A stretch of 35,219 nt of DNA from Bacteroides sp. (GTDB lineage: Bacteria; Bacteroidota; Bacteroidia; Bacteroidales; SM23-62), in assembly GCA_030640625.1 (NCBI GenBank), contig DAOWJB010000335.1, positions 1 to 35,219 of the forward strand. The letters are read 5' to 3'. The stretch's first letter is position 1. Every line of letters starts with the position of its first letter. The position numbers and the translations under genes were made by a program. The notes below the pieces were generated by a model, which ran no database searches, was not told the DNA's origin, and saw only the letters and a list, made by a program, of their open reading frames with translations. Below, in pieces: positions 528 through 20,656 of this stretch.

Positions 528-2753
528 TTAATCCCGGGATTTAGCTGTTTGTGCGAGCTCTTTTAAAATGCTTCTGACATCCTGAACGCCTTCCACATAA
601 TAACTCGCCTTGGTTGTTTTGGTCCCCACTTTAATGGTATATGCCTCATCAGGTAGTGCATCGAAAGTATATTCATCGGTCCAGTCATCCCCAATGGCAA
701 GGATGAAATCATAGTTTGTCTCACCGATCTTGATATTGGCAGCCCTTCCCTTATTGATACCGGAGTTTTTAATCTCGATCACCTTGTCACCGTCCATGAT
801 TTCCAGGTTAAGGTTGGTGACAAGCCCCTTCAGTTCGTCTTTGAGTTCCCATGAACGTTGCTCCCCAAGGTCGGGGTCTGCATTCCGGTAATGCCATACA
901 AGGGAGTAATTCTTTGTCTCGATAAATGATCGTGGGGTACGGATAACATTAAATTCCAGTATGGGGCGGATGATCTCCATCCAGTCACTGTCAATTTGTT
1001 CTATCATGCTGAATTCGCTACCGGGTTCCCGGGTCCATACACCATGTTCTGCTACAATATCCAGGTTCCAATCCGGCGGGAACCATCTCCCAAGGGTTTC
1101 CTTATCGCGCCCTGATATGATCACAAGCCTGTTCTGTTTCTTCAGGGATATCTTTTTGAGGATATCATATAATTCTTTGTCGGGATGGACTTTCTGGGGG
1201 TCCTTATCGAATCCCATCAGGGTTCCGTCATAATCCAGGAAAAGGATGCGCCTTGAGGCCTTCCCGTATGATTCACTTATCTCCTTAACAAGCTGGTGTG
1301 TGATCTTCTTGGCCAGTTTGATCTCCTGGATCTTTTTAACCTCATCCAGGCTTTTAATAAATTGATCTGCCCAGGTGCCAATATTATAACTGCGCAATCG
1401 CTGCGTGAGTGACTTGTTCTTACTTATTTGTGTTTCTTCCGGCATTTCCAGGGAATACCGGATGGCCTCACTGATCTCCAGCTGGTTGTTCGGATTAACA
1501 ATGATGGCATCGACCAGTTCTTTGGAAGCCCCGGCCGTTTCACTGATGATCAACACACCGCCCTTGTCAGACCTTGTTGCCAGGAATTCTTTTGCGATCA
1601 GGTTCATCCCGTCCCTGATGGGAGTAATCAGGGCGATATCTGACTGACAATACAGTTCAATCCGTTCTTTGAGACTCAGTGGACGGTAAAAGTACCAGAC
1701 AGGCATCCAGTTCAGGGAACCATAGGTAGAATTGATCCGGCCAACCAGTTCATCCATATCCTTCTTCAGGTTTTTATATAAATCAGCTGATTCTCTTGAA
1801 GGTATTACAAAAAAGAGGAAACTCACTTTCTCATGGTATTCCGGATTGGATTTGAGGAAATGTTCAAAAGCCCTGAGTCTAACTTTGATCCCTTTGGTGT
1901 AATCCAGCCTGTCAATGGAAAGGATGAGCTTTTTTTCATGCCCGAGCAGCTGCTGGTTGACCAGGTCTTTGGTGAAACCTGTGGCTTTTTTAACATCGCA
2001 AATTTCTTTGGCCCCGAGGGCAAACTTGTCAAAGTCAATGCCAATCGGGAAGAAATCCACCCTTACGATCCTTTCTTCCAGATGTATCCGGTTGAATACG
2101 GTATCGTATCCCAGCAAGCGCCTCACACAACTCATGAAATGCCGTTCATAGTCATAGGTATGAAAGCCGACGAGGTCTGATCCCAGAAGTCCTTCCAGTA
2201 TCTCCCTGCGCCAGGGAAGGAGTCGGAAGATCTCATACGAGGGAAAAGGAATATGGAGGAAAAATCCGATGGAGACCCAGGGAAATTTTTCCCTGATCAT
2301 CTGGGGTAAAAGCATCAGGTGGTAATCATGGATCCAGACCTTATCTCCAATGTCCAGTAATGGCATTATCTCGTCTGCATATTTCTTATTGATGTTTACA
2401 TAGGAATCCCAGTATTCTTCTTTGTAAACCGTATTCTCTGTAAAATAGTGAAAAAGGGGCCAGATGGTCAGTATACTGAACCCATCCAGGAATTTGTCAT
2501 GCTCTTTTTTCGAAGTATAAACCGGATAACAATTGTTTTTATGGAACTCCTTTTCCAGCCGGTCGCGTTCAGTGCGTGATACATCCCCCTTGTTCATCCG
2601 TGGCCTGCCAAACCAAATACATTTTTGTTGTTTATAAAATTCATCGAGGCCGCTACCAAAAATGTGAGATTTGGAGATAACTGCATAATGTTGATCGTCA
2701 GTCCACTCAAGAATATAGGGAAGTTCGTGTGCTATAATGACAAGTTTGCTCAT
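528..2753 (-). CDS. GT20 glucosyltransferase fused to HAD phosphatase (OtsA-OtsB type)
   Basis: This 741-residue cytosolic fusion has a GT20 domain (about 1-475) and a trehalose-phosphatase-type HAD domain (about 500-741). The family transfers glucose from a nucleotide sugar to a sugar phosphate, classically glucose 6-phosphate giving trehalose 6-phosphate, then dephosphorylates the product. Visible GT20 signatures are WIHDYHLMLLP, GFFLHIPFPSYEIFRLLP, DRLDYTKG (R282, K287, nucleotide diphosphate contacts) and RDGMNLIAKEF (D381, E389). The HAD domain has LDYDGT (D507, D509), ISGR and GDDWTDEYTF. Oddly, the extreme N-terminus reads VIIAHELPY instead of the usual VSNRLPV, the GGL loop is replaced by FGSGL, and GWxG is FGRP. 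These are acceptor-phosphate positions in E. coli OtsA, so an acceptor other than glucose 6-phosphate is possible. The gene is divergent from the GH65 fusion and is followed by an MFS transporter 8 bases later. Fold assignment is secure; trehalose as product is likely but not certain. Confidence 0.88.
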   Translation of the reverse strand: MSKLVIIAHELPYILEWTDDQHYAVISKSHIFGSGLDEFYKQQKCIWFGRPRMNKGDVSRTERDRLEKEFHKNNCYPVYTSKKEHDKFLDGFSILTIWPLFHYFTENTVYKEEYWDSYVNINKKYADEIMPLLDIGDKVWIHDYHLMLLPQMIREKFPWVSIGFFLHIPFPSYEIFRLLPWRREILEGLLGSDLVGFHTYDYERHFMSCVRRLLGYDTVFNRIHLEERIVRVDFFPIGIDFDKFALGAKEICDVKKATGFTKDLVNQQLLGHEKKLILSIDRLDYTKGIKVRLRAFEHFLKSNPEYHEKVSFLFFVIPSRESADLYKNLKKDMDELVGRINSTYGSLNWMPVWYFYRPLSLKERIELYCQSDIALITPIRDGMNLIAKEFLATRSDKGGVLIISETAGASKELVDAIIVNPNNQLEISEAIRYSLEMPEETQISKNKSLTQRLRSYNIGTWADQFIKSLDEVKKIQEIKLAKKITHQLVKEISESYGKASRRILFLDYDGTLMGFDKDPQKVHPDKELYDILKKISLKKQNRLVIISGRDKETLGRWFPPDWNLDIVAEHGVWTREPGSEFSMIEQIDSDWMEIIRPILEFNVIRTPRSFIETKNYSLVWHYRNADPDLGEQRSWELKDELKGLVTNLNLEIMDGDKVIEIKNSGINKGRAANIKIGETNYDFILAIGDDWTDEYTFDALPDEAYTIKVGTKTTKASYYVEGVQDVRSILKELAQTAKSRD

Positions 2754-2782
2754 ATTTTTTGGAAAGGCTATTGATTACCTGG

Positions 2783-2812
2783 ATTGTCCAGTCATTAATT
2801 TTCCTATTTTTG
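2783..2812 (+). promoter_or_regulatory. Putative promoter of the GH65-HAD gene
   Basis: TATTTTTG at 2805-2812 matches the Bacteroidota -7 consensus TAnnTTTG exactly. ATTG at 2783-2786, 18 bases upstream, is one mismatch from the -33 TTTG box. Transcription would start near 2820, giving a leader of about 50 bases. It lies in the 115-base gap between divergent genes. A weaker minus-strand candidate for the GT20 gene exists in the same gap (TTTG, 19-base spacer, TAGAATTA), but I do not list it separately. Confidence 0.45.
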
Positions 2813-2868
2813 AGATATGTTCAAGTTAATTCTATTCATCCGATAATCAAAATCAAACACTATCATTA

Positions 2869-5800
2869 ATGGCCAAACATCGTTTCACTGCAGTCATATT
2901 TGACCTGGATGGCGTGATCACCCAGACCGCCCTTGTACACTCTTCCGCCTGGAAAGAAATGTTTGACACCTACCTGAAGTTTCGTGAAGAAAATTATGGT
3001 GAACCTTTTCGTGAATTCAGCCATGTAAAGGATTACCTGCCCTATGTAGATGGAAAACCACGATACAAAGGGGTAGCTTCTTTCCTGGAATCACGGAGTA
3101 TTGATATCCCTTTTGGCGATCCCTCAGATTTGCCAGAGGCAGAGACAGCGTGTGGCCTGGGCAACAGGAAAAACCTGGTATTTAATGAGATATTGGACAG
3201 AGACGGTGTTAAGATGTATGATTCCACAGTAGACCTGATTCACCAATTGAAAAAGGAAGGAATCCGTATCGGTGTTGCTTCCTCAAGTAAAAATTGTAAG
3301 CCTGTACTTGAGGCAGCCGGACTGCTGGAACTTTTTGAAACCCGGGTGGACGGAGTGGTATCGGTTGAATTTGGACTCCAGGGCAAGCCGGAGCCGGATA
3401 TTTTTACTACCGCATGTGATAACCTGGGAGTGGAGTATGATGAATCAGTGGTCGTTGAGGATGCTGTCAGCGGTGTGCAGGCTGGACGAAAAGGCAATTT
3501 TGGCCTGGTCCTGGGTGTAGCCAGGGAGGAGAATAGCCATGAACTGTTGATCAATGGTGCGGATATCGTGGTAGAAGATATGGCAGATCTTGGCGGGATA
3601 GAGGGCATTGACAGTTGGTTTGAAACCGGACTGGAGGAAGACAGGTGGTCCATTGTATACCATGACTATGACCCGGAGAAGGAAAAATCCAGGGAAGCAT
3701 TACTGGCTGTCGGGAACGGTTATTTCGGAACCAGGGGAGCGATGGAAGAAACCAGCGCAGGGGAGGCCAATTATCCCGGCACCTATATGGCGGGTATGTT
3801 TAACCGCAGGGTCTCAAAAGTGGCTGACAGGGATATTGAAAATGAAGATTTTGTGAATTGTCCCAACTGGCTCCCGGTTAGTTTCCGGTCCGGGGAAGGG
3901 GACTGGATGGATCCAAACAGGTATAAAGTACTTCAGATCAAGCGGTGCTTATCATTCCGCGACGGATTATTGTCCAGGGAGATGATCGTTGAGGATAACT
4001 CAGGCAAGCAAACGAAAATTACATCACACAGGGTGGCCAGCATGGAAGATCAGCATGTTGCGGTCATGCAATACAATGTGCAACCACTGAACTATGCTGG
4101 AAAGATCAGTGTTCGCTCCGGACTGGATGGTGACCTGATCAATGATGGGGTAGCCAGGTACAGGCAGCTCGACCAGCATCAGCTGGAACCGGTTGAACAG
4201 GGAGGCGATGATCAATCACAGTACCTGCTGGTAAAAACCAATCAGTCTGCCGTGGAGATAGGCATTGCATGCCGGATCCGGATCCTTGTTGATCAGGTTG
4301 AACAGGAACCTGATCTGCATCACAACATTTCACCATGCAAAGTGGATACTGAAACTACAGTGGAGCTCGGACAGGGACAGATACTAAGCATTGAAAGGCT
4401 GGTTAACATCTATACCTCCAGGGAAACAGGGCCCGGAATGACTTTGCAGACGGCCCGGGAACAGGCAAATCAAATCGAAAGTTTTCGTCAGGTGCAGCTT
4501 GGGAGTGCAGGGAAATGGAAAGAGATATGGAAAGAGGCGGATATACAGGTGAGCGGGGACCGGTTTGCACAGAAATTGCTGAGGATGCATACCTATCACT
4601 TGATGGTTACGGCCTCCAAGCACAATGAAAAAATTGATGCCGGTATCCCGGCAAGGGGATTGCACGGTGAAGCTTACAGGGGACATATCTTCTGGGATGA
4701 ACTGTACATCCTTAATTTTTATGCCCTTCATTTTCCGGAAATAGTGAAGTCGGTTCTGATGTATCGCTACCGGAGAATTGATGAGGCAAGGAAATATGCA
4801 AAAGAATATGGCTTTGCGGGTGCCATGTACCCCTGGCAAAGTGGCAGCGATGGCCGGGAAGAAACACAGATCGTCCACCTGAACCCTGTGTCCGGGGAAT
4901 GGGGAGATGATTACAGCTCCCTGCAGCGACACGTCTCCCTGGCAATTGCCTTTAATATCTGGAACTATTACTGGATCACGCTTGATGAAGCATTCATGTC
5001 CTCCGAGGGCGGGGAAATGCTCCTTGAGATATGCCGGTTCTGGGCAAGCAAAGCTGAATGGGATGAGGCATCCGGGAAGTATTCCATCAGGAAGGTGATG
5101 GGGCCTGATGAGTTCCATGAGCATCTGCCGGGATCTGATGAAGGGGGAATTAAAGACAATGCCTACACCAACCTTATGGTGGCCTGGATTTTTGGAAAAG
5201 TAACAGGATACCTGGATACCGTTCCGGAGAAGGAGATCAGTCCCCTGCTAAATAAGATCAAATTGACCGGGGAGGAAATTGACCTGTGGAAGGATATTAA
5301 AAATAAGCTGGCCTTACATATTTCTGAAGAGGGGATCATTGCCCAGTTTGATGGTTATTTTGGATTGCAGGAACTGGACTGGGATCATTATCGTGAAGAG
5401 TACGGAAGTATTTACAGGATGGACAGGATACTGAAGGCCGAGGGGAAGTCCCCCGACGACTACAAAGTAGCCAAGCAGGCAGATACACTTATGACCTGGT
5501 ATAATCTTGGTGCAGATGAGGTATCATCCTTGCTCTCCGGCATGGGATACCAGGCAGAAAAGGCTACCCTGCTGCCCAATTTTGATTATTATTTTCAGCG
5601 TACTTCGCATGGATCAACACTGAGTAGGATCGTACATGCATACCTCGCCAATGAGCTTGGCATAGGCGATATTGCCTGGACATTATATATGGAGGCATTG
5701 TCGAGTGATTATGTTGATATACAGGGTGGTACAACAGCTGAAGGAATCCATGCCGGGGTGATGGGATCCACCCTGCTGTTTGTCATTCAGTCCATTGCCG

Positions 5801-6027
5801 GGATTCGATTCAATAAAGAAAAACTATTTGTGAATCCCTCATTGCCTGCCGGATGGAAAAAAATCACTTTCAATTTTGCATTTAGAAAAAAATATTACAC
5901 CTTTGAAATCTTTCGTGAAATGATTGCGATCAAAGTGGATGCTTCTGATGATCAATCGGTTGAAATTGAGATTGCAGGAAGAGTACATGGGATTGTCCCT
6001 GGTGATAAATTTGAAGTGGATTACTAG
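2869..6027 (+). CDS. HAD beta-phosphoglucomutase-like / GH65 glycoside phosphorylase fusion
   Basis: This 1052-residue protein joins two activities usually encoded by neighbouring genes. Residues 1 to about 245 form a HAD mutase: nucleophile motif FDLDGV (D12, D14), the YVDGKPRYKGVASFL cap segment typical of beta-phosphoglucomutases paired with GH65 enzymes, VASSSKN, GKPEPD and VVEDAVSGVQAG. Residues about 255-1052 form a GH65 enzyme: GNGYFGTRG, RGHIFWDELY, the general acid in GPDEFHE (E748), KQAD (K869-D872), and the phosphate-binding loop TSHGSTLSR (H914-T917). That loop points to phosphorolysis rather than hydrolysis. Together they would split an alpha-glucoside with phosphate to beta-glucose 1-phosphate and convert it to glucose 6-phosphate. 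GH65 specificities include trehalose, maltose, kojibiose, nigerose and glucosylglycerol, which the sequence alone does not separate. The divergent GT20 enzyme is the likely supplier of the glucoside. No signal peptide is seen, so it acts in the cytosol. Confidence 0.88.
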   Translation: MAKHRFTAVIFDLDGVITQTALVHSSAWKEMFDTYLKFREENYGEPFREFSHVKDYLPYVDGKPRYKGVASFLESRSIDIPFGDPSDLPEAETACGLGNRKNLVFNEILDRDGVKMYDSTVDLIHQLKKEGIRIGVASSSKNCKPVLEAAGLLELFETRVDGVVSVEFGLQGKPEPDIFTTACDNLGVEYDESVVVEDAVSGVQAGRKGNFGLVLGVAREENSHELLINGADIVVEDMADLGGIEGIDSWFETGLEEDRWSIVYHDYDPEKEKSREALLAVGNGYFGTRGAMEETSAGEANYPGTYMAGMFNRRVSKVADRDIENEDFVNCPNWLPVSFRSGEGDWMDPNRYKVLQIKRCLSFRDGLLSREMIVEDNSGKQTKITSHRVASMEDQHVAVMQYNVQPLNYAGKISVRSGLDGDLINDGVARYRQLDQHQLEPVEQGGDDQSQYLLVKTNQSAVEIGIACRIRILVDQVEQEPDLHHNISPCKVDTETTVELGQGQILSIERLVNIYTSRETGPGMTLQTAREQANQIESFRQVQLGSAGKWKEIWKEADIQVSGDRFAQKLLRMHTYHLMVTASKHNEKIDAGIPARGLHGEAYRGHIFWDELYILNFYALHFPEIVKSVLMYRYRRIDEARKYAKEYGFAGAMYPWQSGSDGREETQIVHLNPVSGEWGDDYSSLQRHVSLAIAFNIWNYYWITLDEAFMSSEGGEMLLEICRFWASKAEWDEASGKYSIRKVMGPDEFHEHLPGSDEGGIKDNAYTNLMVAWIFGKVTGYLDTVPEKEISPLLNKIKLTGEEIDLWKDIKNKLALHISEEGIIAQFDGYFGLQELDWDHYREEYGSIYRMDRILKAEGKSPDDYKVAKQADTLMTWYNLGADEVSSLLSGMGYQAEKATLLPNFDYYFQRTSHGSTLSRIVHAYLANELGIGDIAWTLYMEALSSDYVDIQGGTTAEGIHAGVMGSTLLFVIQSIAGIRFNKEKLFVNPSLPAGWKKITFNFAFRKKYYTFEIFREMIAIKVDASDDQSVEIEIAGRVHGIVPGDKFEVDY

Positions 6028-6047
6028 ATGTCAGAAAAGTGAGTGTT

Positions 6048-6713
6048 ATGCTAGGTGATATTCTGTTAATTGAGGAGACACATAAAAAAGCAGCCGCTGA
6101 TATAAAGGTGTACATGGTGAAGGATCTCGAATCCAAACCCAAAGGTTATAAATATATCGTGGCCATTTCAGGGGAATCCGGAGCAGGCAAATCAGAACTG
6201 TCCCATTCCCTGGCCAAATTACTGAAGTATGACCAGATCAGGGTAAAAGTATTACATACGGACAATTACTACATTGTACCACCCCTGCTCCGTAACGAAT
6301 GGAGGAAAACGCATGGAATCGAAAGCATAGGTATCGATGAATATGACTGGAACCTGATCCACCAGAACATACGTGAATTCAAGGAAGGCCGTGAGGCCAT
6401 GATGCCTTGTATTGATATTATCCCCGAACAGATCGACAAACTCATCACAGATTTTAAAAAGGTTGACATGCTTGTCGTGGATGGCTTGTATGCCATCAAG
6501 ACAGACCATGTTGACATGCGTGTTTTTATCGACCTGACCTACCATGAGACCAAAATGACCCAGATCATCCGGGGGAAGGAGCCAATGAATGAGTACCGGT
6601 CACAGGTACTGGAACAGGAACATCAGAATGTTGTCTCCCTTAAATCTCTTGCAGACCTGGTCGTCAATAAAAATTATCAGGTTGAAGCCGTCAACGGGCA
6701 ATTCACCAAATAA
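6048..6713 (+). CDS. P-loop kinase, uridine-kinase-like
   Basis: A 221-residue P-loop protein with Walker A GESGAGKS (about residues 42-49) after a beta strand (YIVAIS), a uridine-kinase-style TDNYY segment, and VVDGLYA where uridine kinases carry their acidic second motif. Basic residues near IIRGKE could form the lid. I chose ATG 6048; an in-frame GTG at 6039 would add three residues. It lies about 20 bases after the GH65 fusion stop, so it is probably in the same operon. The fold is that of uridine/phosphoribulokinase-type kinases, but a pyrimidine salvage role does not fit this context. A sugar, glucoside or regulatory substrate is equally possible. The true substrate is unknown. Confidence 0.75.
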   Translation: MLGDILLIEETHKKAAADIKVYMVKDLESKPKGYKYIVAISGESGAGKSELSHSLAKLLKYDQIRVKVLHTDNYYIVPPLLRNEWRKTHGIESIGIDEYDWNLIHQNIREFKEGREAMMPCIDIIPEQIDKLITDFKKVDMLVVDGLYAIKTDHVDMRVFIDLTYHETKMTQIIRGKEPMNEYRSQVLEQEHQNVVSLKSLADLVVNKNYQVEAVNGQFTK

Positions 6714-13824: not shown

Positions 13825-15456
13825 TTAGTAGTAGAGTAACCATGCTTTCTGGTCATATTGTTCCCGGATGCGGTTCATTTCCTCAATGGCTGCCGCTTTT
13901 GATTCATGAGAACTGAAAGAAACTGCATGAAGGTTGTTTTTCCTGCCAAACAGTTCAGCACCATAACCTTTTGATTTAAGAGTATTTACATAAGACTCAG
14001 CATTTGCTTTACTGGAAAACATGCCTGCTACAATGTAGTATTTCCTGGTCTGGCTGGCAGGTGGAGTTTCTGTTTCAGGAGCAGTTTCAACTTCTGTTTC
14101 CTGCGGGGTTTTCCCAGCGGGAGTATCAGTAACAGCTTCTGTTTCCTGTTCAGTAATCTCCTCTGGTTCATCCCCGGGAGTAACTGATTCCTGAGTGATT
14201 TCCCCCTGATCTTCGGTGCCGGTTGCTATCTCCTGTCCAGGGCTGGCTACATCGTCACGGGCAGGTTCTTCCACAGTTGTTGTTTCCGGTGTTTGTCTGG
14301 TTAAAATTCGGTTGACCTTATCAGGGAAAAAGAACCAGGCAGCCACCAGCAGAATAATTAAAAAGGCTGCTGCTCCAACTATCCAGGGCCAGGCTCTCCT
14401 TATTTCCCTCTCCCCGGTTCCATAGACAAAGGCAGAAGCCTCTGCAGATGATTCTGATTCCTTTTCCTCTTGTACGGATGCTGCTGCCGCTGCTGCCTCC
14501 AGGCGTGCCTGGCTGGTTTCAGCGGATTGCTCCTGTTTCTTCTGCTCTTCAATTACAAACGGAGGCTCTTCGGGAGGTTCTTTGGCATCAGGTTTCAATA
14601 GTGCATCCTCAGAGGCATCCACATCAATCTCTCCAGTCTGGTCATCCAGGGTAAAGATCCCCTCTTCTGAAGCTTCCTTGGGTGACTCTTCCTCCGCAGC
14701 CACTTCCTCTGAAGGGGTCTCCTCTATGGGAACTTCTTCTTCAGACACTTCCTCTGAAGGGGTTTCTTCAATGGGTGCTTCTTCTTCAGCCACTTCCTCT
14801 GAAGGGGTCTCTTCTATGGGTACTTCTTCATCGGCCAATTCCACTGTAAGGGTCTCCTCTATGGGAACTTCTTCTTTTGTCACTTCTTCTGAAGAGGTTT
14901 CTTCAATGGGAATTTCTTCATCGGCCAATTCTACTGTAAGGGTCTCCTCTATGGGAACTTCTTCTTCGGCAACTTCTTCTGAAGGGGTTTCTTCTGGAGG
15001 GATTTCTGCTGATGTACCTTCCCAGGCTGTTGGGACTTCTGTCGTTTCTTCATCCGCCGGTTCAGGGACTGGTTCTGTGGATTCCTCGACAGTTTCGGGT
15101 TGGCTTATTGAAGCAGATGTTATGACTTCTTTACTTGTCGGGAATCTAGTCACAGAAAACTCAATCTTACTGGAATCATCCATTTTTAGGTAGCCAAGAT
15201 CTTCTAAATGAAAAATATCCCCCTTTGTCAATACTTTTTTCACATGGTCAACAAACTCTTCGATCTTAACTTGTGATTTTGACATAGAAAGACCTTCCTG
15301 TTGCTTGATGTGGGATGTTAGCATACCATCATTGAAAGCAAGCAGGTCGTTAAATACCAGTTCCCGTGGTTCTTGTTGTCTGATGATGAACGCACCCAGG
15401 TCAGGAACAATCACCCGGTTGTTCGTCTCAAGCAATTCGATTAGATACTTTTCCAT
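13825..15456 (-). CDS. HU-CCDC81-type / SPOR transmembrane protein with acidic repeats
   Basis: This 543-residue protein has four parts. Residues 1 to about 105 resemble the HU-like CCDC81 domains of Bacteroidota (LETNNRVIVPDLGAFIIRQQ; HLEDLGYLKMDD). Residues about 130-350 are very acidic and Pro/Thr-rich, with about seven 15-residue repeats of the PIEETPSEEVAEEEV type. A single transmembrane helix (about 352-376: WPWIVGAAAFLIILLVAAW) follows Arg-rich residues. After another low-complexity acidic linker, a SPOR domain (about 470-543: YYIVAGMFSSKANAESYV...) ends the chain. SPOR domains bind denuded septal peptidoglycan, so the topology is cytosolic HU-like head and periplasmic SPOR tail. It may tie the division site or cell wall to the cytosol or nucleoid. 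The receiver gene follows 12 bases later. Confidence 0.85.
   Translation of the reverse strand: MEKYLIELLETNNRVIVPDLGAFIIRQQEPRELVFNDLLAFNDGMLTSHIKQQEGLSMSKSQVKIEEFVDHVKKVLTKGDIFHLEDLGYLKMDDSSKIEFSVTRFPTSKEVITSASISQPETVEESTEPVPEPADEETTEVPTAWEGTSAEIPPEETPSEEVAEEEVPIEETLTVELADEEIPIEETSSEEVTKEEVPIEETLTVELADEEVPIEETPSEEVAEEEAPIEETPSEEVSEEEVPIEETPSEEVAAEEESPKEASEEGIFTLDDQTGEIDVDASEDALLKPDAKEPPEEPPFVIEEQKKQEQSAETSQARLEAAAAAASVQEEKESESSAEASAFVYGTGEREIRRAWPWIVGAAAFLIILLVAAWFFFPDKVNRILTRQTPETTTVEEPARDDVASPGQEIATGTEDQGEITQESVTPGDEPEEITEQETEAVTDTPAGKTPQETEVETAPETETPPASQTRKYYIVAGMFSSKANAESYVNTLKSKGYGAELFGRKNNLHAVSFSSHESKAAAIEEMNRIREQYDQKAWLLYY
14690..15000. repeat. 45-bp coding tandem repeats (about seven units)
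   Basis: Units repeat every 45 bases (for example GAAGGGGT recurs at 14711 and 14756) and encode 15-residue acidic repeats. Two variants appear: PIEETPSEEV... and PIEETLTVELADEE..., and the second occurs twice in alternation, giving a partial 90-base higher-order period. In-frame unit gain or loss would change only linker length. Confidence 0.85.
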
Positions 15457-17682: not shown

Positions 17683-18330
17683 TCATTCCGGGCTATACTC
17701 TACGGTACTGCCGCTTACGCTGTCCAGATCCAGTTCATCCGTGATTTCCAGCAAACCATCGTATGCCCGCTGGACGGCATCACAGAAGGCACGTGATGTA
17801 ATAGTGGCTGCCGTAATGGCGTCCACATCCCCATCGTCCTGTTTCACCATGAGTGAAAAGCTCGCTGGATCTATCCCTATAAACTGACTGGTCCATGATT
17901 CCCCGGTACGTTTATCAAATGATTTTTCTTTTTCCATTTTATCCCCGAGTCCGGGAGTTTCTATATGTTCCAGGACAGCGACATCATAGAGGGTACCATC
18001 CGGACGAAATCCCACCATGATCCTGATCAAACCACTGAATCCGGTTCGCGTATAGGTTTCCACAGCAAATCCGGTTACTTCGTCTCCTTTCCTGGCCCGG
18101 TAAAAATACAGGGTGTCTCCATCTACAGCTAGTTTTTTCATTTCAGTTCCAGGATCATTATCAAATTCAGGTACAACTTTACCGATGGCAATGGCTCTCT
18201 TAATTCTTTTTACCTCTGCAATTGGTCCCTTGGTTAATTCATATACCAGTGCCAGTGCGGATGATGCAAATAATGTTACCAGGAAAAGGGTAAGCACCAT
18301 ATTTTTAAATGTTGATTCCTTCTTAGCCAT
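17683..18330 (-). CDS. rnfG: Rnf electron transport complex subunit RnfG
   Basis: A 215-residue subunit with one N-terminal membrane anchor (about residues 10-32) and a periplasmic FMN-binding domain. The flavinylation site is in DAITAATITSRAF, a TAAT variant of the usual SGAT motif; FMN is attached to the second Thr by ApbE. I chose ATG 18330, because it has a strong AGGAGG sequence 6 bases upstream, rare for this phylum. The longer frame from 18348 would add six residues and lose that spacing. The start overlaps the end of rnfD by 8 bases, so the ribosome site lies inside rnfD. Confidence 0.93.
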   Translation of the reverse strand: MAKKESTFKNMVLTLFLVTLFASSALALVYELTKGPIAEVKRIKRAIAIGKVVPEFDNDPGTEMKKLAVDGDTLYFYRARKGDEVTGFAVETYTRTGFSGLIRIMVGFRPDGTLYDVAVLEHIETPGLGDKMEKEKSFDKRTGESWTSQFIGIDPASFSLMVKQDDGDVDAITAATITSRAFCDAVQRAYDGLLEITDELDLDSVSGSTVEYSPE

Positions 18331-19321
18331 TTGACACCTCCTCTCCAAACCTTCTGGGCTTTACATATTTATTGATTATCGGGGTAACAGCGTTCATGAT
18401 CAGGATGGCAAATTGCACCCCTTCCGGATAAGCTCCGAAAATACGGATCACTACGGTAATAATCCCTATGCCAACACCATAGATCCACATACCTTTTATA
18501 TTCATTGGGGATGTGACATAATCGGTCGCCATGAAAATGGCGCCTAGCATGAGACCCCCACTTAAAAGATGAAAGAGGGGGTTAGGATTGGATGTGGGTC
18601 CAATCAACCACATAATGCCTGTAAAAATAGTTACTGTCAGTAGAATACTCACCGGTATATGCCAGGTGATGATCTTCCGGATCAGCAGGTATGCGAAGCC
18701 AATGAGAAGGGCTGCTGCTGCAATCTCGCCGGCTGATCCCCCCATGTTGCCCATGAACATATCCTGGTAGAAAGGAATATCCAACAGGATATGACTGATG
18801 CTTTCCCTGTTTTTTAAGCCCTCCTTCATGATACTGAGGGGAGTAGCTCCGGTCGATGCATCGAGATAGGCAAAATGGTTTACTCCTGGTTCCGGCCAGC
18901 TGGTCAGCTGTACCGGGAAGGATATAAACAGGAAAACCCTCCCCACCAGCGCCGGATTAAAGGGATTGTTGCCCAGTCCGCCAAATGACATCTTGCCAAC
19001 CGAAATGGCCACGAAACTACCCAGAATTACAAGCCAGATGGGCAGGTTGGTGGGCAAACAGAAAGCCAGTAACATACCGGTTACCATGGCTGAACCATTT
19101 GATATGGCAGGCTTTTCCTTCATTAAGTATCGCTGGATCAGGAATTCGAAAATGACACAGGAGACCATGGCCGTGACAGTGATGATGACTGTGCTGATGC
19201 CAAAAAAGTACACTGAGGCTAGAAATGCGGGGAGCAATGCAATGATTACACCATACATCAACTTCGGGACCGATTCACTGCTGTGGTCATGGGGAGATGG
19301 TGATATTGTTAACAATCCCAT
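18323..19321 (-). CDS. rnfD: Rnf electron transport complex subunit RnfD
   Basis: A 332-residue polytopic membrane protein of the NqrB/RnfD family. The covalent FMN site is STGATPLS (about residues 155-162), and segments such as SFGGLGNNPFNPALVGRVFLF match the family. It sits in the membrane core and passes electrons between RnfG/RnfC and the ion-translocating helices. It starts 3 bases after the rnfC stop. Confidence 0.95.
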   Translation of the reverse strand: MGLLTISPSPHDHSSESVPKLMYGVIIALLPAFLASVYFFGISTVIITVTAMVSCVIFEFLIQRYLMKEKPAISNGSAMVTGMLLAFCLPTNLPIWLVILGSFVAISVGKMSFGGLGNNPFNPALVGRVFLFISFPVQLTSWPEPGVNHFAYLDASTGATPLSIMKEGLKNRESISHILLDIPFYQDMFMGNMGGSAGEIAAAALLIGFAYLLIRKIITWHIPVSILLTVTIFTGIMWLIGPTSNPNPLFHLLSGGLMLGAIFMATDYVTSPMNIKGMWIYGVGIGIITVVIRIFGAYPEGVQFAILIMNAVTPIINKYVKPRRFGEEVSNG

Positions 19322-19324
19322 ATA

Positions 19325-20656
19325 TTAATTTTTTCTCAATCTTCTGATCTTGTTGATTTCAACCTTGCCCAGCCTGATATAATCAAGCAAGTGTCTGTTG
19401 GCCGGACAGATATAGTTGCATGAACCACATTCCATACAGTCCGTTGCCTTTTCTTCCTCCATCCGTTCGAACAATTCCCGTTCGCCAAAGGCCATGAGCA
19501 GGTAGGGTTCAAGTCCCATTGGACAGACAGTAATGCATTTGGAACAGCGAATACAGTGCTGCATTTCCTTTCTCCTGGATTCCGCCTCAGGCAAGACAAG
19601 CAGGCCGCTGGTTCCTTTTATCACAGGTACTTCCAGGCTGTTAAGGGCCTTGCCCATCATGGTGCCACCTGAAATGATCTTACCAGTATTCTCAGGCAAT
19701 CCCCCGCATGCCTCAATCAATGCAGAAATGGGAGTTCCGATCCGTACCATGAAATTTCCAGGTTTTTCCAGGTTTTTCCCGGTGCTTGTAACAACCCTTT
19801 CAAACAAGGGTTTGTTTTTCTGTATGGCCTGATAGGTAGCAAACAGGGTTCCTACATTGAAAACCACCGCACCCACATCGATCGGGAGTCCACCTGATGG
19901 CACCTCTCTGTTGATGAGTGCTTTGATCAGCTGTTTTTCACCACCCTGGGGATATTTCACCCTCAGGCCCTGGATCTCGATGCCAGGATAATGTTGGGCC
20001 CGGTCTGACATATGATCAATGGCATCCGGCTTATTGTTCTCAATCCCGATGAAGGCTTTTTCAACATCAAGCGCCTTCATGATGATGGTGGCCCCCACAA
20101 GTATTTGATCTGCTTTTTCCATCATCAGGATATGATCGGAAGTCAGGTAGGGTTCGCATTCTGCTCCGTTGACGATCAGGTATTTCACCTTCATTCCCCT
20201 GGGCAGGGATAATTTAACATGTGATGGGAAAGTGGCACCTCCCATTCCGACGATCCCGGATTGATTTATCTTCTGTACAATTTCCTGTCGTTCCAGGGCT
20301 ATTTCGGTAATCAACTCAGGTGAACGGTCGATTTCTTCAACCCATTCATCACCGTCCACTTTAATGCTTATGGCATTTCTTTTATATCCCGACATGTCGA
20401 CAACGGCAGCTATCTTTAAAACTTTTCCGGATACAGATGAGTGTATATTGGCAGAGATAAAACCTTCACCCCGGGCAATCAACTGTCCTACCTTTACCTG
20501 ATCACCTCTCTCAACAAGGACCTTCGGAGCTGCTCCGATATGCTGATTTAGAGGGATACTTACCTGTTCGGGTACAGGGAGTTCCTCGATTGTACTTCCA
20601 GCTGTGAGCTTGTTTTCGGAAGGGTGTATACCGCCAGGTCTGAATGTTTTAAACAC
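19325..20656 (-). CDS. rnfC: Rnf electron transport complex subunit RnfC
   Basis: A 443-residue peripheral subunit that binds NAD(H) and FMN and carries two [4Fe-4S] clusters. It starts with TFRPGGIHPSENKLT and has the NADH/FMN-binding GIVGMGGATFPSHVKL segment (about residues 134-149), NGAECEPYLTSD, and two CxxCxxC motifs: CIRCSKCITVCP (about 366-377) and CMECGSCNYICP (about 407-418). The initiation codon is GTG at 20656-20654; the conserved N-terminus leaves no later ATG, so the GTG is probably real. It begins 5 bases after the rnfB stop. Confidence 0.95.
   Translation of the reverse strand: MFKTFRPGGIHPSENKLTAGSTIEELPVPEQVSIPLNQHIGAAPKVLVERGDQVKVGQLIARGEGFISANIHSSVSGKVLKIAAVVDMSGYKRNAISIKVDGDEWVEEIDRSPELITEIALERQEIVQKINQSGIVGMGGATFPSHVKLSLPRGMKVKYLIVNGAECEPYLTSDHILMMEKADQILVGATIIMKALDVEKAFIGIENNKPDAIDHMSDRAQHYPGIEIQGLRVKYPQGGEKQLIKALINREVPSGGLPIDVGAVVFNVGTLFATYQAIQKNKPLFERVVTSTGKNLEKPGNFMVRIGTPISALIEACGGLPENTGKIISGGTMMGKALNSLEVPVIKGTSGLLVLPEAESRRKEMQHCIRCSKCITVCPMGLEPYLLMAFGERELFERMEEEKATDCMECGSCNYICPANRHLLDYIRLGKVEINKIRRLRKN

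Follow-up and report, generated by a model that had tools for sequence, protein, structure and literature searches.

A trehalose-6-phosphate synthase (TPS) fold joined to a HAD trehalose-phosphatase (TPP) domain has eukaryotic precedents in fungal Tps2 (5dxf, the N-terminal domain of C. albicans Tps2), in plant class II TPS and, among non-catalytic relatives, in yeast Tps3 and Tsl1. In these eukaryotic pseudo-synthases the ligand residues of the TPS half are partly lost (PMC1769515), and the bacterial protein described here has both the same two domains and a comparable loss. However, here the host belongs to Bacteroidota, the decay began among bacterial TPS-TPP fusions, and a linked fusion of beta-phosphoglucomutase (betaPGM) and GH65 domains accompanies it; the clade to which the protein belongs would be a bacterial counterpart to the fungal and plant pseudo-synthase domains. 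The canonical bacterial TPS-TPP fusions (PRK14501) have the domain order of this protein, about 49% identity to it and a full-length match, but in the members compared none of the 12 ligand residues tested is lost and no GH65 gene lies in the flanks examined (up to 10 kb, shorter on small contigs). Glucosylglycerol-phosphate synthases (GgpS, TIGR02398) also have a GT20 domain and an N-terminal H-x-x-PY, combined with the opposite pattern of ligand residues.

Phosphorylases of family GH65 usually act in breakdown in vivo, and the T6P (trehalose 6-phosphate) of L. lactis comes from PTS uptake. Described T6P phosphorylases (L. lactis TrePP, cited in PMC8626586; Caldithrix abyssi CaGP, PMC8537180; PDB 9lb6) have a DQGQ signature and an R-x-D-R-x-L-K-A-E-x-x-S-P-D loop like those of the GH65 domain analysed here, which differs from them by sharing its polypeptide with betaPGM and its locus with a T6P phosphatase gene.

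The window, by which we mean the whole stretch of 35,219 nucleotides analysed, is a Bacteroides sp. contig (DAOWJB010000335.1, assembly GCA_030640625.1). The genes and domains that concern us lie near its start:

528..2753, minus strand: GT20-HAD fusion gene, product 741 aa
1344..2747, minus strand: GT20 (trehalose-6-phosphate-synthase-like) domain, residues 3-470, ligand residues partly gone
591..1241, minus strand: HAD trehalose-phosphatase domain (PF02358), from profile match and motif alignment
2754..2868, no strand: intergenic region of 115 bp between two divergent transcription units
2869..6027, plus strand: betaPGM (HAD-IA)-GH65 fusion of 1052 aa, a putative trehalose-6-phosphate phosphorylase
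6039..6713, plus strand: P-loop kinase of the PRK/uridine-kinase superfamily, 224 aa, from domain match and predicted structure

The 741-aa protein, which begins MSKLVIIAHELPYILEW, matches both PF00982 and PF02358, and PRK14501 over residues 1-736 (908 bits; cut-off 634). Its AlphaFold model (mean pLDDT 85) has the TPS fold, with an uncertain loop at residues 30-33 (pLDDT below 50), and aligns with solved TPS structures at TMt 0.88-0.94; 5dxf is among the structural matches. A profile search of the 4.0 Mb, 90% complete genome found no second GT20 (PF00982) over the cut-off. GT20 genes routinely receive the name trehalose-6-phosphate synthase, for which this protein, too, scores above the curated cut-off, despite a degraded acceptor pocket.

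Avonce et al. (2006; PMC1769515) list Arg9, Trp40, Tyr76, Trp85 and Arg300 as the glucose 6-phosphate (G6P) residues of TPS, and Gly22, Asp130, His154, Arg262, Asp361 and Glu369 as those for UDP-glucose; all are kept in every protein with reported TPS activity. Tyr76 of OtsA both binds the phosphate of the acceptor and holds Arg9 in place (PMC3288074). Residue equivalences were taken from an alignment of the window protein with E. coli OtsA (L108), in which the GWxG tryptophan, Trp40 in the literature, is position 41 when counted without Met. The positions concerned are as follows:

2724..2726, minus strand: Glu10, replacing OtsA Arg9 (acceptor phosphate), from the alignment
2646..2666, minus strand: residues 30-36, HIFGSGL, replacing the GGLxxG loop (FGSGL is 32-36), from alignment and model
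2604..2606, minus strand: Arg50, replacing the GWxG Trp (FGRP is residues 48-51), from the alignment
2487..2489, minus strand: Leu89, replacing OtsA Tyr76, from the alignment
2460..2462, minus strand: Trp98, equivalent to OtsA Trp85, kept in 29 of 29 clade rows
1893..1910, minus strand: Arg282 to Lys287 (OtsA R262 and K267), donor phosphate residues, retained in the window
1794..1796, minus strand: Arg320, equivalent to OtsA Arg300, kept in the window and missing from 16 of 29 clade rows
1587..1613, minus strand: Asp381 to Glu389 (OtsA D361 and E369), donor residues, retained

Four residues of the conserved set are replaced. Three belong to the five G6P residues (Arg9, Trp40/41 and Tyr76; Trp98 and Arg320 are retained), and the fourth is Gly22 of the UDP-glucose set, aligned with Ile31, while the counterparts of Asp130, His154, Arg262, Asp361 and Glu369 are retained. 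This supports a degraded G6P side of the pocket, in which two of three phosphate-contacting residues are gone and an acidic residue stands at the position of Arg9. An earlier note on this DNA, made from its letters alone, had already pointed to Glu10, FGSGL and Arg50 in FGRP and to intact donor residues R282, K287, D381 and E389; the ORF translation and the OtsA alignment bear it out on each, the donor residues corresponding to R262, K267, D361 and E369. The replacement of Tyr76 by Leu89 had been overlooked.

That note had also likened the N-terminus to GgpS, and the H-x-x-PY start is indeed common to both. The likeness goes no further. Two annotated GgpS (on plasmids) read HRQPY in this stretch; Arg9, Trp and Tyr76 are all present in them and Asn replaces Arg300, whereas the window protein has lost the first three and kept Arg300. 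Identity of its GT20 domain is 29-31% with these two and about 49% with canonical Bacteroidota TPS-TPP fusions, and its TIGR02398 score of 324 bits lies below the cut-off of 569. The note had proposed alignment with OtsA, GgpS and the Bacteroidota fusions as a check. In a tree (without a GgpS row) the clade of the window protein is nested among TPS-TPP fusions, and the canonical rows keep all the residues that it has lost. The linked GH65 carries DQGQ and scores only 228 bits with glucosylglycerol phosphorylase, against 575 with a T6P enzyme. Kinship or analogy with GgpS was set aside on the residue pattern, the identity and the sub-threshold score, and it seems to us most improbable that the protein is a relative of glucosylglycerol-phosphate synthase.

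We compared 29 cassette-type rows with 54 canonical ones, the relatives being the best 80 matches of one scan (named genomes) and further genomes of the same order, many of them metagenome bins. Between one and eight of the 12 ligand residues tested are lost in every one of the 29 clade rows and none in any of the 54 canonical rows, so these losses are not chance. In a tree of the HAD domain, which leaves out the GT20 columns (quick search, midpoint root), the 29 rows form one side of a branch (SH-aLRT 99) among canonical Bacteroidota TPS-TPP fusions. On this tree the state changes 12 times at Arg9, 11 times at the Trp, 10 times at Gly22 and eight times at Tyr76, while Trp85, His154 and Glu369 never change and are kept in every clade row. 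The residues found at Arg9 are Glu, Lys, Gln, Leu, Phe, Ile and His, with four retained Arg. In the most decayed member (L050) eight of 12 are lost, including Lys267 and Asp130, and its GT20 is the only one over the cut-off in its genome; the cassette GT20 is the sole GT20 in 23 of 28 clade genomes. Bacteroides sp. SM23_62_1 (L030, L078) has a cassette-type and a canonical TPS-TPP fusion in one genome. Three further loci of the same order (L015, L017, L018) carry another GT20-HAD variant, beginning RLIIAAYRLPFKF, in which Arg and GG are kept and GTAD or GIAD replaces GWxG.

The two halves of these proteins have diverged at different rates. Mean identity within the clade is 53% for GT20 and 69% for HAD, against 61% and 56% in canonical fusions; at a matched HAD identity of 60-70%, GT20 identity is 49% in the clade and 68% in canonical fusions, and the ratio of dN(GT20) to dN(HAD) is 1.82 against 0.91. 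Omega for GT20 is nonetheless about 0.05-0.14 in pairs with measurable dS (synonymous sites being mostly saturated), values which indicate that the clade domain is still maintained under purifying selection and hence has some function. A simple pseudogene is ruled out by this selection and by the intact frame. All four HAD motifs (LDYDGTL, IISGRD, GINKG, GDDWTDE) are intact in the window protein, as the earlier note had said of its phosphatase, and every position examined in them is kept in 29 of 29 clade rows, bar one Thr/Ser. The best reading of the HAD half is that it remains a trehalose-6-phosphate phosphatase.

It has to be asked whether the GT20 half is instead an active glucosyltransferase with a different acceptor, whose phosphoglucoside would be dephosphorylated by the HAD domain and split by GH65. 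The window protein has its donor side intact; Glu10 and Arg50 do not vary inside its genus nor, with Leu89, among its nearest relatives; and acceptors vary across the GH65 family (PMC8537180). Against this, conserved replacements would be expected of a new acceptor site, and we find a mixture across the clade although the linked GH65 keeps one signature, that of T6P phosphorylases; moreover, 14 of 29 clade rows no longer have Arg262 on the donor side. Since the replacements are variable, the rate of GT20 relative to HAD is twice that of canonical fusions and the HAD motifs are intact, we consider relaxation, rather than a new conserved acceptor site, the best reading of the clade pattern, and an altered acceptor to be unlikely. 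The earlier note's suspicion of the acceptor thus survives as a degraded G6P side, while the switch to another phosphoglucoside that it had in mind is disfavoured by the variable replacements and by the GH65 signature.

That signature comes from the fusion gene on the other strand, in which two features matter here:

2887..3498, plus strand: beta-phosphoglucomutase domain, motifs DLDGVIT, ASSSKN, GKPEPD and VVEDAVSG
4825..4938, plus strand: GH65 specificity loop (38 residues), which contains Q, G and Q out of the four aligned signature residues, from the alignment

At the clade loci the PGM-GH65 gene, whole or in part, adjoins GT20 divergently and is split into two ORFs in a few genomes; one GT20 fragment at a contig start (L057) was left outside this neighbourhood count. 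De Beul et al. (2021; PMC8537180) showed that six positions predict GH65 specificity (64, 392, 394, 402, 416 and 585 in CsKP), with DQGQDE marking trehalose-6-phosphate phosphorylase, an assignment confirmed by assay. All clade GH65s have D, Q, G and Q at the four cleanly aligned positions; the alignment is gapped at the remaining two, close to which Asp and Glu are present. For the window GH65 the nearest solved structure is 9lb6, whose name describes a T6P enzyme (575 bits), against 346 bits for kojibiose phosphorylase, and the loop RxDRxLKAExxSPDDY that it has in common with 9lb6 is absent from kojibiose phosphorylase. The catalytic acid is present (VMGPDEFHEH, motif GPDEFHE), as in a phosphorylase rather than a hydrolase, and the phosphate-site hydroxyls read SHGSTLS, where the phosphorylases KP and T6PP have HKSSLS and HGSTTS. 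We propose that the window PGM-GH65 is a trehalose-6-phosphate phosphorylase that can also run synthetically.

In explaining how an intact phosphatase came to be attached to a decaying synthase, our essential contention, to which we give a probability of roughly one half, is that the GT20 half is now a pseudo-synthase or regulatory domain, that the HAD half is a T6P phosphatase and that T6P is handled by PGM-GH65. The PGM domain would interconvert glucose 6-phosphate and beta-glucose 1-phosphate; GH65 would join the latter to a second glucose 6-phosphate to give T6P, or split T6P in reverse; and the HAD domain would pull T6P towards trehalose. The probable role of the kinase is to supply the reverse or salvage direction, with T6P made from trehalose or glucose 6-phosphate from glucose. 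The most economical reading is that PGM-GH65 can make T6P from glucose 6-phosphate and that its supply made the linked GT20 half redundant; the latter would have decayed, with synthase activity lost or nearly lost, whereas selection on the HAD half would have remained strong.

The same locus could be read the other way. GT20 may still be a working T6P synthase, with GH65 and the kinase (a trehalose kinase or glucokinase) forming the breakdown arm of a trehalose cycle. The usual catabolic role of known GH65 phosphorylases favours this and weighs against our proposal, as does the purifying selection on GT20, in which Trp85, His154 and Glu369 persist in every clade row. The window protein itself keeps the equivalents of Arg300, Arg262, Lys267, Asp361, Glu369 and Trp85, so that it may have a residual or altered transferase activity. 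The kinase gene, too, lies behind PGM-GH65 in every clade cassette whose contig reaches far enough, which suggests a role in breakdown that a synthetic reading does not require. Yet the residues lost here are kept by all proteins with reported TPS activity (PMC1769515), a glutamate in place of Arg9 would oppose a phosphate ligand, and Arg262 and/or Arg300 are also gone in half of the clade. We find a working synthase doubtful for these reasons, and prefer the pseudo-synthase with T6P handled by PGM-GH65.

For the kinase itself, the context of its homologues is suggestive of, though not decisive for, a sugar kinase. Structure singles out no substrate: the model resembles several kinases of the superfamily alike, matching uridine-cytidine, pantothenate and phosphoribulokinases about equally. 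Of 83 Chlorobiaceae genomes with PGM-GH65, 25 have homologues of 55-60% identity, located apart from the PGM-GH65 gene. More distant homologues (about 30%; L153-L156) adjoin GH100-like genes, SLC45-like or solute:sodium symporters and LacI regulators, and one of them (L156) also has a trehalase and a GH97 near by. A search of open-licence literature, a weak negative, found no paper on 'trehalose kinase' with 'trehalose 6-phosphate'.

A second setting for PGM-GH65, with an independent tie to T6P phosphatases that favours our reading, is provided by the Chlorobiaceae, whose proteins have 46-52% identity to that of the window. No GT20 was found in 25 Chlorobiaceae genomes checked and no PF02358 in 15, while the FmoA family was present in 15 of 15 tested. 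Directly upstream of their PGM-GH65 lies an unrelated phosphatase, of the T6P phosphatase family T6PP_N/T6PP_C, which takes its name from the nematode (Brugia-type) enzyme. T6PP_C occurs in 82 of 392 sampled genomes of the Bacteroidota phylum, all of them Chlorobiaceae, and in 73 of the 82 the gap between its domain match and that of PGM-GH65 is 63-91 bp, these 73 representing one family and not independent events; the remainder are mostly split matches or contig ends. The operon of T6PP_N/T6PP_C and betaPGM-GH65 is family-wide (L164, L166, L168 and L169; for example L166:5695-10199). In four Chlorobiaceae genomes (G244, G304, G316, G394) the T6PP_C match falls in two pieces within one open frame, perhaps through a domain insertion.

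With no GT20 in these genomes, GH65 would be the obvious source of T6P, and the operon may represent a trehalose route of green sulfur bacteria that has yet to be described; if so, it would explain the use of a T6P phosphatase by Chlorobiaceae without GT20. Trehalose accumulation has been reported for two Chlorobiaceae (PMC7824335). It may have another source, since TreS is also present over the cut-off in the 15 Chlorobiaceae checked, and their GH65 motif is DQAQ or DQAP, not DQGQ; both points count against our explanation. TreS and TreY were dropped as sources of trehalose in the window genome (90% complete), which has no match to either over the cut-off.

A third pattern, also in favour of our reading, is found on a plasmid of Indioceanicola profundi (L201:5902-9995), which has an OtsB-type trehalose-phosphatase domain fused to betaPGM, followed by a separate GH65 with DQGQ. 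On plasmid 2 of Nitrobacter hamburgensis (L202:3900-10136) a glucokinase, a PGM-GH65 (DQGQ), a HAD-IIB phosphatase and a GH130-like gene are followed by a phosphoketolase. We put forward, tentatively and with somewhat less assurance than our reading of the window, a trehalose route without T6P synthase or nucleotide sugar, in which betaPGM-GH65 would turn two glucose 6-phosphate into T6P and phosphate and a linked phosphatase would release trehalose. That phosphatase would be of the Brugia type in Chlorobiaceae, an OtsB-PGM fusion in Indioceanicola and, in the window's Bacteroidota clade, a domain still attached to a decayed GT20 whose role would now be to sense or regulate. Should the cassette operate in the way we suggest, many Bacteroidota and perhaps green sulfur bacteria would owe their T6P to a phosphorylase and a mutase and not to a nucleotide-sugar transferase. 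In open-licence literature, where a negative result is weak, we found no paper combining T6P phosphorylase, T6P phosphatase and beta-phosphoglucomutase.

Elsewhere in the window, RnfC- and RnfD-like genes (18323-20656, minus strand) form an ordinary electron-transport locus of the Rnf/Nqr type, and 13825-15456 (minus strand) encodes a protein with CCDC81-like HU domains and a SPOR domain.
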